Shown piece by piece: positions 9,700 through 52,402 of a DNA stretch of 64,000 bases (positions are counted from its first letter, which is position 1; each line of letters opens with the position of its first letter). Source of the stretch: Bacteroidia bacterium (lineage in GTDB: Bacteria > Bacteroidota > Bacteroidia > JADZBD01); the NCBI GenBank assembly GCA_020852255.1, contig JADZBD010000002.1, forward strand, positions 409,531 to 473,530, given 5' to 3'. A program made the position numbers and the translations under genes. The notes below the pieces were generated by a model. It ran no database searches. It saw only the letters and a program-made list of their open reading frames with translations, and was not told the origin of the DNA.

Positions 9700-12246
9700 A
9701 TGAAAAGTAACGTTCTTTTTGTTTTAATTTTCTTCCTGCACTCCACTTCCTTTTCCCAAAGTTGCCCTGCCATTTTTCCTCAGGATACCGCTTTGTTTTC
9801 TGTTCCCTTTTGGACCAGCGCCTTTGTCACCGGCGACTTCAATACAGATGGCCTTTCAGACCTGGCATACGTCAATCGTAATGATGGCACCCTAAGTGTT
9901 CGAATCGGAAACGGGAATCTGAGCTTTCAGCCAGAAGTTAACTATGCCACACAATCCAATGCCTTTGATATTCTCACGGACGATTTTAACAATGACCTTA
10001 TTCCGGATCTCGCCGTAACAAATCCATCAGCACAAGGAGTTTCGGTGCTTCTTGGAAATGGCAATGGCACCTTTCAAGCTGCTGTCCTTTTTGTAACAAT
10101 CACCGGAAATCCATATCGTATTGCATCCGGTGATGTGAATGGAGATGGCAACAGGGAAATACTGTATTCCAATCTGAATGATGATGTAGTCGCTCTTCTT
10201 CCCGGCAACGGTAACGGAACATTCCAGCTTGGCGCACTCTATTTTTGTGATGCCAACGGCGAGGGGCTTACCTGTGCTGATTTTAACGGGGACGGGCGGG
10301 CCGACGTTGTAGTTGCAAATAACCCTTCAAATTCTGTATCATTTCTGGCCGGTAATGGTAATAATTCCCTGCAATCCCCGGTGAATTATTCCGTGAGCGC
10401 AAATCCACTGGACGTGGCTACTGAAGATATTGATCTCGATGGAATTAAGGATTTGCTCGTTGTAACATATAATAATCTTTGTATCCTAAAAGGAAACGGA
10501 AACGGGACATTTCAAAACAGCATATCCATCCCCACCCAGGCAATGGGTGGTTGCCGCTTGAATATTTCCGATCTCAATTCAGATGGATTCGTAGATATTG
10601 TCATCGCTAACTCCTACAGCGCAGACGTGAGCGTTTTTCCGGGAAATGGAACTGTAAATCCATCTGCACCGGTGGTATATTCCGCGGGAGCTTTTATTTC
10701 TCTATTTTGTATTGATATTGCAGATTTCGACCAGGACTCTTATCCGGATATCGCTTATATGGATTTAACCAATTACGAATTTCATGTTCTTCGGGGTAAT
10801 GGAACCGGTGTATTTCCTGCGGCGACAAATTATCAAATTACCGGCGGATGGGGCCCCCGTGCGCTTGCTACAGCTGATCTGAATGGTGATGGGAATCTTG
10901 ACCTCGTGACGGCAAATCAAAATACAAATAATCTAAGTGTAATGTACGGATCCGGATCAGGAACGTTTCAGTCGAGTACCAATTATTCAGTTGGAACGAG
11001 CCCATTCGCTATAATTAGCGCCGACTTAGAGGGGGACGGGGACAGTGATCTCGTTGTAACAAACGAAGGAAGTGCGAATATTTCTATTCTCTTAAATAGT
11101 GGTACAGGCATATTTGCGCCAGCTGTGAATTATTCTGTAGGCACAAATCCAAGGCATATTGCTGTGGCCGATTTCGACACTAACGGTATCCGGGACATTG
11201 CCGTTACTAATATCGGTAGTGCAAATGTCTCTGTGCTCCTGGGATTGGGAAGCGGTCTTTATGCTTCTGCAGTGAATTTTATTGTAAATGCGCAGCCTGA
11301 CGGAATAGCTGCTTCTGATTTTGATGGCGATTCTATTCTCGATCTTTTCGTAGTCACAAATTACAGTTACTGTTTCCTGAAGGGTATAGGGAATGGAAGT
11401 TTTGCCCCTTCTATCCCTACCGCTACCACCTCATACCGGCTGGCAATGGTCTACGATTTCAATCAGGATTCTATTCCTGACGTTGCCTGTAACCGGGCTT
11501 CAATTCCTGCAATTACTATTTTCCTGGGACAGGGAAATGGAACATTCCTCACTTCCTCCACTGTATCCACCTTTATTGGGATTCAGTCCTTTGTACTTTC
11601 TGATCTTAACGGGGATCTCAAACCCGATTTCGTGGTGGCGGAGGGCGCCTCGTCACAGTTGATCTGCACGGTTTTAAATTTGGGAAATCTATTCTTCAGC
11701 ACACCAAATATTTATCGAACGGATTCAGAGCCATATTGGATTGCGCCCGGAGACTTTAACGGCGATTATAAGAATGATATAGCGGCCATTGCCAAACGAT
11801 CAAATACCGTTTCGGTTTTATTGAATAATACTCCTAATTACTTTATTCATGATACCACAGTTACAATTTGCGCAGGCGACAGCTTCTTGCTATATGGCAA
11901 TTACTATTTAACAGGGGGCATCTATTATGACAGCATGTTTGTCGCAGTTAATGGCTGTGACAGTCTACATTTCTCGGAAATTGAGGTGATTCCCTGTACA
12001 GGTATAAGTGATTCAGACTTCGGACCTGAAATGTTACGTATTTTCCCTAACCCGGCAAATGATTGGGTAACCGTCCTAGGCTCAGGTGATTTTAATCTAT
12101 TCGACATGACAGGAAATTCTGTTCTGGCAAAGCGTAACGTGAGCGGCCGAACGGAGATTTGTGTTTCATCCCTTTGTCCGGGAATCTATGTAGCTGAACT
12201 CATCAGCAGTAGCGGCGTTCTTAGAACTAGGTTGATTCGTAATTAA
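9700..12246 (+). CDS. FG-GAP/VCBS-repeat secreted protein with T9SS type-A sorting domain
   Basis: This 848-residue protein has a signal peptide (MKSNVLFVLIFFLHSTSFSQ). About a dozen FG-GAP/VCBS-type repeats fill residues 30-715; each has a calcium-loop-like core such as DFNTDGLSDLAYV, DVNGDGNREI or DLNGDGNLDLV, followed by LGNGNGTF. This is an integrin-alpha-like beta-propeller fold. A short segment at about 720-765 contains CAGDSFLLYGNYY and NGCDSLHFSE. The C-terminal type-A T9SS signal begins at about 778 (LRIFPNPANDWVTV) and ends in RTRLIRN. It is probably surface-bound or released, with an adhesion or matrix role by analogy. It is followed by 677 nt without a credible gene. Confidence 0.9.
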   Translation: MKSNVLFVLIFFLHSTSFSQSCPAIFPQDTALFSVPFWTSAFVTGDFNTDGLSDLAYVNRNDGTLSVRIGNGNLSFQPEVNYATQSNAFDILTDDFNNDLIPDLAVTNPSAQGVSVLLGNGNGTFQAAVLFVTITGNPYRIASGDVNGDGNREILYSNLNDDVVALLPGNGNGTFQLGALYFCDANGEGLTCADFNGDGRADVVVANNPSNSVSFLAGNGNNSLQSPVNYSVSANPLDVATEDIDLDGIKDLLVVTYNNLCILKGNGNGTFQNSISIPTQAMGGCRLNISDLNSDGFVDIVIANSYSADVSVFPGNGTVNPSAPVVYSAGAFISLFCIDIADFDQDSYPDIAYMDLTNYEFHVLRGNGTGVFPAATNYQITGGWGPRALATADLNGDGNLDLVTANQNTNNLSVMYGSGSGTFQSSTNYSVGTSPFAIISADLEGDGDSDLVVTNEGSANISILLNSGTGIFAPAVNYSVGTNPRHIAVADFDTNGIRDIAVTNIGSANVSVLLGLGSGLYASAVNFIVNAQPDGIAASDFDGDSILDLFVVTNYSYCFLKGIGNGSFAPSIPTATTSYRLAMVYDFNQDSIPDVACNRASIPAITIFLGQGNGTFLTSSTVSTFIGIQSFVLSDLNGDLKPDFVVAEGASSQLICTVLNLGNLFFSTPNIYRTDSEPYWIAPGDFNGDYKNDIAAIAKRSNTVSVLLNNTPNYFIHDTTVTICAGDSFLLYGNYYLTGGIYYDSMFVAVNGCDSLHFSEIEVIPCTGISDSDFGPEMLRIFPNPANDWVTVLGSGDFNLFDMTGNSVLAKRNVSGRTEICVSSLCPGIYVAELISSSGVLRTRLIRN

Positions 12247-12326
12247 TGGAAATTCTGCCGAAACAGACCCAATAACTACTCGAGCCCTACCTAAAAAAGA
12301 GCCGTAAACTTCCAGAACAAACTCAT

Positions 12327-12535
12327 ACAATTGGATGGCAATGCTTTACCTTTTCCATTACAATACCTTAGATTTTCCTACGCAAAGCCTAGAATTACCC
12401 TTGAAAATCCTTGTCTTTTCCTTGATTTTCCCTTGTTATTACCGTCTTTTATCGGCCTTTTGTCGTGGGTTTATCGTAATTGCAATGTAATTGAGTCGTG
12501 GTTGAGCCGTGGTTTAGTCGTGGCTTGGTCATCTT
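12327..12535 (+). repeat. Degenerate tandem array with an 11-nt period (about 19 units)
   Basis: Read in steps of 11 from 12327, most units share a T/A-rich first half, a C-C/G core at positions 6-7 and a T-G-rich end. Examples are AAAATCCTTGT (12404), TTTTCCCTTGT (12426), TTTATCGTAAT (12470), TGAGTCGTGGT (12492), TGAGCCGTGGT (12503) and TTAGTCGTGGC (12514). The phase is kept for about 200 nt with almost no slippage. The units are too degenerate and spacer-free for CRISPR, and 11 is not a coding period. The function is unknown. A related, shorter array in the opposite orientation is at 15512-15577. Confidence 0.65.
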
Positions 12536-12571
12536 AGAACAGGGCAATTCCTGGCTTTTGCGTTGGCGTTA

Positions 12572-12678
12572 TCATTTTTCCGCCTCCTTTGCATCCCGTT
12601 TTGCCAAACTTACCAGATTCCGGCAGGCGTTAGAACAGTAAAGAGCATTTTTCTTCCATGCCCAGTACTCATCAGTTT
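12572..12678 (-). pseudogene. Short decayed coding fragment with a CSNAC motif
   Basis: The minus strand reads about 34 codons without a start codon, from just after an in-frame TAA to a TGA at 12572-12574. The translation includes EYWAWKKNALYCSNACRNLV. The CSNACR part resembles small zinc-ribbon-like proteins common on mobile elements, but this is weak. Its stop overlaps an ATG that opens a 13-codon frame ending at 12534. It is best treated as a remnant, or possibly chance. Confidence 0.3.
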
Positions 12679-12710
12679 AAGCGGAATTTCCAACCAGATT
12701 ATACCCTAAA

Positions 12711-12777
12711 ATACCCCCCTTTCAGGTTTCCTAATGGGTTTCCTTTTTTCTCATCCAAAAATTGGAAACCTAATCGG
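12711..12777 (+). repeat. 67-nt flanking repeat, copy 1
   Basis: This copy begins ATACCCCCC and contains CAGGTTTCC, a run of pyrimidines, then CCAAAAATTGGAAACCT. It matches 15862-15928 in the same orientation at 54 of 67 positions by hand alignment. GGTTTCC and GGAAACC inside it form an inverted pair. The two copies bracket the toxin-antitoxin, transposase and kinase genes. Confidence 0.75.
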
Positions 12778-12896
12778 AGCTGATTTTCTACAACTAATGA
12801 GCGGAGAAGCGGTCAATATGATGTTTATAACAGGCTGAATATCAACAGATGAAAAAATACATGTAGACCTTTAGTGCTACTTCAGAAAATAGTCAG

Positions 12897-14818: not shown

Positions 14819-15469
14819 ATGTCCGTAAAGCATGAATTACAGGATATCATTTCAGGAAATGGACCGGTTAGGAATGGAAAAACTATCCAGGCAATCACCG
14901 GCTACCTTAGAGGAAAAAAGAAGGCAGTTCAGGGAGCTGAAAAAGCGAAGCAGGTCAAAGAACAGGAAACGCAGACCCTCATAGAGTATATTGATATCAA
15001 TAAGCTCTGGTACAGTGCCATCGATGAATCAAAATATATCGGCGAAGGTGCTGAACAAAAGATTTACGACTCCCCGGATCCTGATTTCATCATTAAACTC
15101 AACGACGGAATATTTTACGAACAGTGGGAAGACTATTTTAACAGCCTTCTGATCCATAACTATTTTTTTCCGCACCTGGCCTACGAGCTCCTTGGATTTT
15201 ATATGCCTGATGATAAACTTTTCACCGTTGTCCGGCAGCCCTTCGTACGGGCGACAGGCAACACCGACCTTGAAAATGTCAAAGAATTTCTGACTGCGAA
15301 CGGTTTCCTGAATAAAAAGGGAAATGATTACTACCATCCCGGGCTTGGACTTATCCTGGAGGATCTGCACGATGAAAATGTACTTACGGAAGACGGCGCG
15401 CTGCAGTTCATTGATACTGTTTTTTTCCTGACCCCTTCCTTTTATGAAAAAGATCTGGGAAAAGTTTGA
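14819..15469 (+). CDS. Stand-alone polyvalent-protein-type atypical kinase
   Basis: This 216-residue protein has a basic helical N terminus (about 1-50), then a compact kinase-like domain. Visible parts are the nucleotide loop GEGAEQKIY (75-83), the lysine in FIIKLND (K93), the catalytic-loop equivalent LEDLHDENVL (about 180-189) and the metal-binding aspartate in FIDTVFF (about 197-203). This matches the Ser/Thr/Tyr kinase domain described in phage and mobile-element polyvalent proteins. There it is one module of a huge protein; here it is alone with its own promoter. A role in modifying host proteins or in element conflict is inferred from the family. The stop is followed by 593 nt without a gene. 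Confidence 0.75.
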   Translation: MSVKHELQDIISGNGPVRNGKTIQAITGYLRGKKKAVQGAEKAKQVKEQETQTLIEYIDINKLWYSAIDESKYIGEGAEQKIYDSPDPDFIIKLNDGIFYEQWEDYFNSLLIHNYFFPHLAYELLGFYMPDDKLFTVVRQPFVRATGNTDLENVKEFLTANGFLNKKGNDYYHPGLGLILEDLHDENVLTEDGALQFIDTVFFLTPSFYEKDLGKV

Positions 15470-15511: not shown

Positions 15512-15577
15512 CCAGTAACCATCCAGTAACCAAAAAAGGTAAAACAAGGTCAAAAAAGGGGTAGGCAAGGAGAAATC
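15512..15577 (+). repeat. Short array with an 11-nt period, including two copies of CCAGTAACCA
   Basis: CCAGTAACCA occurs at 15512-15521 and 15523-15532. The phase continues as AAAAGGTAAAA, CAAGGTCAAAA, AAGGGGTAGGC and AAGGAGAAATC in 11-nt steps. On the opposite strand these units look like those at 12327-12535 (CCTT cores). Function is unknown. Confidence 0.5.
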
Positions 15578-15633
15578 GAAAATGTTAATCTGTTGACTTT
15601 GTTTACTTTAATTTCCTATGGTTTACCGGGTGT

Positions 15634-15833: not shown

Positions 15834-15861
15834 GGAGCAATTGCTCAAATTTTACCCATTT

Positions 15862-15928
15862 ATACCCCCTTTTCAGGTTTCCAAACAGGTCGCATTTTTC
15901 AAGCTCCAAAAATTGGAAACCTGATCGG
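15862..15928 (+). repeat. 67-nt flanking repeat, copy 2
   Basis: This is the partner of 12711-12777, identical at 54 of 67 positions by hand alignment, same orientation. A further partial copy of its end, GGAAACCTGATCGGG, recurs at 15972-15986. The stretch 15834-16062 otherwise shows no gene. Confidence 0.75.
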
Positions 15929-16062
15929 GCACTTTTCTTTACAATCCTCCAGTGAAAACAGTGTTTTTCCAGGAAACCTGATCGGGTTTTTTCAACCTGT
16001 TTTCCCGTGCAAAGAGGATCCTTTCATGCTCCAAAACTCTTTCCCAACTTTATTCTCATTAG

Positions 16063-52237: not shown

Positions 52238-52270
52238 CATATATTCATTTTCAATGATCGAACACTCTGA

Positions 52271-52378
52271 CTTATCTATTCCCGGAATTTCTTCCGGGAT
52301 ACGAGTTGGCACCTTGCTGAATTACCAGACGGTTGCCAAGGCTTCATCGGGCGTACTCCCTCTGCCTTTCTGGATAAG
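52271..52378 (-). ncRNA. SAM-I (S-box) riboswitch aptamer of metH
   Basis: The minus strand carries the S-box pattern: P1 CTTATC (52378-52373) paired with GATAAG (52276-52271). Inside are AGAAAGGCAGAGGGA, GCCCGATGAAGCC, TTGGCAACC and AAGGTGCCAA, and a P4-type hairpin TCCCGGAA/TTCCGGGA. Length is 108 nt, as usual. SAM binding stabilises P1, frees the terminator at 52207-52237 and stops metH transcription when methionine/SAM is plentiful. Confidence 0.93.
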
Positions 52379-52402
52379 TATGAAAAGAACGAATTACAGC
52401 CA

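Follow-up and report, generated by a model that had tools for sequence, protein, structure and literature searches.

A degenerate 11-nt tandem array in a Bacteroidia bacterium as a possible orphaned operator of a mobile-element winged-HTH protein

What could give rise to a strict 11-nt register that runs for about 200 nt of DNA while the letters drift from unit to unit? The question is raised by positions 12324–12546 (minus strand) of the window, i.e., the whole 64,000-nt stretch of Bacteroidia DNA that was analysed, where autocorrelation, a unit table and predicted curvature delineate a degenerate array of about 19–20 units, strongest at 12377–12530. An 11-nt phase over this length had been claimed in the first-pass annotation, with autocorrelation as the proposed check, and it is borne out: in 12327–12535, identity at lag 11 is 0.551, compared with a mean of 0.279 (sd 0.030) for 2000 dinucleotide-preserving shuffles of the same stretch, none of which (0/2000) reaches 0.551 at any of the lags 5–59, lag 11 included. 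The peak at 11, far above shuffles of the same composition, has echoes at lags 22, 33, 44 and 55. Nowhere else in the window is the lag-11 value as high, and over all periods from 5 to 30 no other stretch there is as strongly periodic. When lags 11, 22 and 33 are summed, it ranks first in the ~2.2 Mb scanned for period 11 (about two-thirds of the genome, with coding DNA masked by crude ORF calls), and no other non-coding 11-nt array in these 2.2 Mb of the Bacteroidota-like source genome is as strong.

On the minus strand, 20 units follow each other in unbroken 11-nt register from 12546 to ~12327. Units 1–7 are TGCCCTGTTCT, AAGATGACCAA, GCCACGACTAA, ACCACGGCTCA, ACCACGACTCA, ATTACATTGCA and ATTACGATAAA; units 8–14 are CCCACGACAAA, AGGCCGATAAA, AGACGGTAATA, ACAAGGGAAAA, TCAAGGAAAAG, ACAAGGATTTT and CAAGGGTAATT; and units 15–20 are CTAGGCTTTGC, GTAGGAAAATC, TAAGGTATTGT, AATGGAAAAGG, TAAAGCATTGC and CATCCAATTGT. 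The unit type changes in order from CCACGACTCAA-type to AAGGAAAATCA-type and then to TGGAAAAGGTA, and the core drifts correspondingly from CCACG to AAGG/TAGG and to TGGAA, in agreement with the drift of the consensus described earlier. Neighbouring units are the most alike, and unit positions 8–11 are mostly A/T-rich. TRF detects the last three units only (12491–12523), because the others are too divergent for it. As the first-pass annotation stated, the array is not a CRISPR: its 11-nt units include no constant repeat, and no cas genes are among its neighbours. Rfam gives no match to it, and RNA folding of the region is no better than that of shuffles (z +1.2). A second short 11-nt stretch lies at 15513–15580, 3′ of a Kinase-PolyVal gene, and consists of CCAGTAACCAT twice, AAGG-type units and then a TTTG sequence; it is weak alone (z 2.6).

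As no DNA homologue of the array is found in 99 relatives, counterparts were sought by form instead. Non-coding arrays with a period of 10, 11 or 20 are few in the ~2.2 Mb: they occur on contigs C18, C15, C16, C14 and C1 and in the window, and all except that of the window sit in apparent integrated mobile elements. The C1 and C14 elements encode a serine recombinase, in C1 beside a tRNA-Leu-like sequence. Relatives of one element gene (VHPAA, named after a motif) were fetched from other genomes of the class, and their loci have arrays at the equivalent place with quite different unit sequences. The view that the array has no known counterpart is thus wrong, as similar arrays exist both in the source genome and in other genomes. 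The positionally equivalent 10/11-nt arrays are accompanied by small winged-HTH (wHTH) genes. Their unit sequences are unrelated and their period is mostly 10 or 20, a period of 11 being common only to C14, C1:140360 and L242.

The element family on L161:11467-16796, L178:1-3300, L143:1-6000 and L115:1-17000 (contigs C18, C15, C16 and C1) shares HTH-M78 (ImmA/IrrE-like) regulators, small wHTH genes, the VHPAA gene and a protein of 500–540 aa with no Pfam or PHROG match. Other repeats were also seen, such as a 25-nt array of GTACGGATTACGGATCTATACGGAT built from TACGGAT pieces at L106:190-310 (C2:360190). Many intergenic regions of Bacteroidota contain degenerate arrays with periods of 6, 7 or 8 (L028, L014, L039, L051, L078, L084 and others; units such as AACTTTG and GAGAATGG), the period being seemingly typical for each genome. 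The literature searched held nothing relevant on 11-bp arrays in Bacteroidetes and no description of arrays of this kind.

The arrays of the elements end at a block of constant spacing, GGAAAG-N22-TTTG, which lies ahead of a gene and has the array directly upstream. The block is a putative promoter, and its TTTG fits the Bacteroidota −7 element. Blocks absent from the 11 loci on which a PWM was trained (the window was likewise not in training) also have arrays upstream, at L178:455 (z 7.3), L115:14598 (z 5.2), and L143:2921 and L128:19450 (z 4.3). In all, a helical-period array (z of at least 4) is present at 13 of the 16 blocks outside the window, or 14 of 17 including it, compared with 3/17 blocks when ten control periods are used and 1.3% of random 300-mers. 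The window array itself ends at a weak promoter-like block, GTAAAG-N22-TTTG (12310–12351, minus strand), with the layout seen in the relatives, whose blocks are strong. Its PWM score of −0.73 lies near the 99.9th percentile for positions in the window. Its occurrence in the expected place is suggestive, although not proof, of a counterpart to the element blocks. A plus-strand block at 12558 scores −10, and the minus-strand block is preferred.

In addition to arrays and blocks, the array-bearing elements of the source genome encode one to three small wHTH proteins each (70–90 aa, MerR/Xis-like), with the alignment consensus KPYTxxELAxIYGIxxRTLxxWL..GRYYTIxQVKxIFxxLxLP. Matches of the family to the models for HTH_17, MerR_1, phage excisionase and BldC are weak. 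Its predicted structure is a helix-turn-helix, a wing and a helix (mean pLDDT 79), for which the first structural neighbour in the PDB is BldC on DNA (E 0.3). Later neighbours include RacA, MerR proteins and the excisionase RdfS, and every E value exceeds 0.1; a PDB profile search gave nothing significant. In the genome, a profile search identifies 12 wHTH genes on six contigs, and a wHTH gene is present in the same element as the sibling arrays on C1, C14, C15, C16, C18 and C22. For C14, a locus not inspected beforehand, an array was predicted from the wHTH gene alone, and an 11-nt array indeed lies directly 5′ of this gene (z 6.6). In a class-wide sample, helical arrays (z of at least 5.5) are found at 10 of 31 wHTH loci and control periods at 1 of 31, and 86 control pieces give 4 and 5; as some of the 10 loci overlap those already seen, L262 is a 7-nt repeat and L278 may be coding, the independent support from this sample is modest. 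No wHTH relatives were found in viral contigs. At the window array, a tblastn search with 2328 element open frames against 11.5–17 kb of the window reveals neither a wHTH gene nor any other element protein nearby.

The main rival to a protein-binding function, although a rather unlikely one, is that the array is a decayed minisatellite, i.e., tandem 11-mers produced by slippage, later mutated and functionless. The likeness of adjacent units and the drifting consensus are consistent with this, as are the lack of a DNA homologue in the 99 relatives and the many slippage-like intergenic arrays of other Bacteroidota. Like those arrays, the present ones are non-coding and consist of degenerate, drifting tandem units; unlike them, they have a period of 10–11, and the period 6–8 loci seen show no tie to a promoter-like block. 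Slippage alone does not predict that periods of 10, 11, 20 and 22 recur, in unrelated units and across genera, at one position by the block. The order of columns within the window units, which fits a planar bend, also argues against a minisatellite.

This bend is predicted from a dinucleotide wedge model, with the caveat that its parameter values call for caution. The array is predicted to bend 12–14° per turn, compared with a window median near 2.7, and ranks 4th over 2.2 million genome positions, so that the curvature prediction suggested at the outset supports a bent structure. When the columns of all units are permuted in the same way and the period is kept, the observed curvature is reached in 0.4% of trials (p 0.004), indicating that the base order within the unit, beyond the period itself, fits a planar bend. 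Intrinsically curved DNA might act alone on the nearby promoter, or through contacts with a general nucleoid protein or RNA polymerase, with no dedicated binder, and the strength of the predicted bend and the phased A/T-rich stretches would be in line with such a role. Yet no strong curvature is predicted for the positionally equivalent arrays of the mobile elements, which means that curvature is not a trait of the family and that what its members have in common is the register. Moreover, base identity between units exceeds that expected from A/T phasing alone and the wedge parameters carry the above caveat, and curvature without a dedicated binder is considered unlikely.

The surroundings of the array provide a further alternative. 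On one side of the array is the 3′ end of an FG-GAP/T9SS gene (9700–12246), and on the other is an island that includes genes for a Gp49-type toxin, an HTH protein and Kinase-PolyVal as well as a fragment of an rve transposase. A single-copy 447-bp segment (12247–12693) contains the array and has inverted IS21-type terminal sequences at both ends: 12247–12267 on the plus strand, and 12672–12693 on the minus strand, the latter matching IS ends of contigs C8 and C14 in all its 22 nt. Elsewhere in the window this end pattern does not occur (expected number 0.02), and in the fetched loci it matches only the ends on C8, where the neighbouring gene reads as IstA-like, and on C14. The segment shows no visible target-site duplication. 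On the minus strand, the array is preceded by a gene end, a short open fragment at 12572–12673 (..DEYWAWKKNALYCSNACRNLVSLAKRDAKEAEK, stop at 12572–12574) whose translation (..YCSNACRN..) is zinc-finger-like by eye and which has no family match and no homologue in 395 genomes.

In this setting, the array might be the interior of a non-autonomous IS21-derived element, its repeats being transposase-binding sites near the ends. The inverted ends agree with that, and the C8 IS end itself has repeats spaced by about two turns. However, the array units are unlike the repeats of those IS ends (AAACTGACCCC), similar arrays are found away from such ends, and neither a second copy nor a duplicated target site speaks for transposition of the segment, leaving this origin improbable. 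ParR/parC systems have an 11-bp period and a comparable order of repeat number, as here, but a plasmid-type partition centromere (parC, with 11-bp iterons) or a set of replication iterons is largely refuted by the neighbourhood and highly improbable, since no ParM/ParR or replication gene is among the neighbours tested (FG-GAP/T9SS, Gp49-type toxin, HTH, rve transposase and Kinase-PolyVal), the contig is chromosomal (578 kb), and the unit drift is too large for a single sequence-specific binder.

The island itself (toxin-like/HTH pair, rve fragment and Kinase-PolyVal gene) is flanked by the two copies of a 100-bp direct repeat, at 12695–12793 and 15846–15944. These are 75% identical, the genome has no further strong copy, and they may represent old attachment sites. 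The Kinase-PolyVal (PF18762) gene at 14819–15469 stands alone, with 3′ neighbours that vary among relatives; it has 399 relatives in genomes, and the best 80 of the 399 are nearly all from Bacteroidota. A tie of the array to this gene was considered and rejected, as the 3′ flanks were examined in 25 relatives and none has such an array (in one relative, the flank was too short for scoring). A SAM riboswitch (RF00162) is located elsewhere in the window, at 52269–52380 on the minus strand.

The operators of recombination directionality factors (RDFs) are among the closest parallels to the arrays of the elements. The RDF type exemplified by Apl places one monomer on each of a series of direct repeats spaced by about one turn; binding is strongly cooperative, bends DNA and discriminates poorly against non-specific DNA. 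Apl is also a promoter regulator, its sites in phage 186 being pR-pL and attP with 5 and 7 repeats (PMC7498355). RdfS of ICEMlSymR7A lacks a consensus motif and assembles into filaments (PMC11963761). As in the Apl and RdfS operators, degenerate direct repeats with 10–11 bp spacing lie here beside promoters of integrative elements, and a small wHTH protein is encoded by the elements; the low sequence specificity of an RDF-type binder would explain the drifting units. Unlike the 5 and 7 units of Apl, the present arrays have up to ~19 units, and the GGAAAG-N22-TTTG block is not described for Apl or RdfS operators.

BldC of Streptomyces, a small MerR-like wHTH protein, oligomerises head to tail on direct repeats whose number varies (PMC5859096); at its long site, successive protomers are one DNA turn apart (PMC11963761). 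The variable number of direct repeats is similar here. In contrast to the BldC consensus AATTXXXX(C), the cores here are CCACG, AAGG, TAGG and GYAY, and BldC is a chromosomal developmental regulator, whereas the wHTH genes here are in mobile elements. At the window array, the RDF/Xis-type trait of direct repeats about one turn apart is present over ~20 units, but the cognate small wHTH gene of an element is absent, and, unlike at Apl and RdfS operators, no integrase gene is adjacent either. The window copy is thus classed as a remnant that would work like such an operator, not as a proven member of the group.

Overall, the best explanation, held tentatively, is that the window array is an extended, degenerate, cooperative operator for an element-type wHTH protein, orphaned as a remnant in the IS21-bounded segment. 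A small MerR/excisionase-like wHTH protein would bind with low sequence specificity, head to tail and with one protomer per 10–11 bp, building a filament on DNA (predicted to be pre-curved in the window) that would control the promoter at the array end. The fixed feature would then be the one-turn register and not the sequence, leaving units free to drift along an array and to differ between elements. Such a binder would select for register and shape over letters, as the arrays show, which is why they are read as extended wHTH operators. In the window, the missing wHTH gene and the small IS21-bounded segment suggest that operator and promoter are what remains of a mobile element whose served gene has been lost. 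Of the earlier proposal, one-turn phasing, bending and putative cooperative binding thus form the best-supported part, whereas a recombinase or nucleoid protein as the binder is not supported. Weighing against the operator reading are the lack of an element protein nearby and the weak window block (GTAAAG versus GGAAAG), the period of 10 or 20 in most relatives, the E value of the BldC match, and the smaller effect in the wider wHTH sample.

A broader and more doubtful proposal concerns a whole class of Bacteroidota mobile elements. Their operons would be regulated through very long operators, of up to ~20 turns, in which only position and helical register are conserved; the letters of an array would be free to evolve, and small MerR/Xis-like proteins would recognise DNA phase and shape. 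If this is true, these arrays would constitute a natural set of operators with common position and helical period and differing sequence, on which indirect (shape) readout by oligomerising winged-HTH proteins could be tested directly. They would also help to locate regulatory regions in mobile elements of Bacteroidota where motif searches fail.
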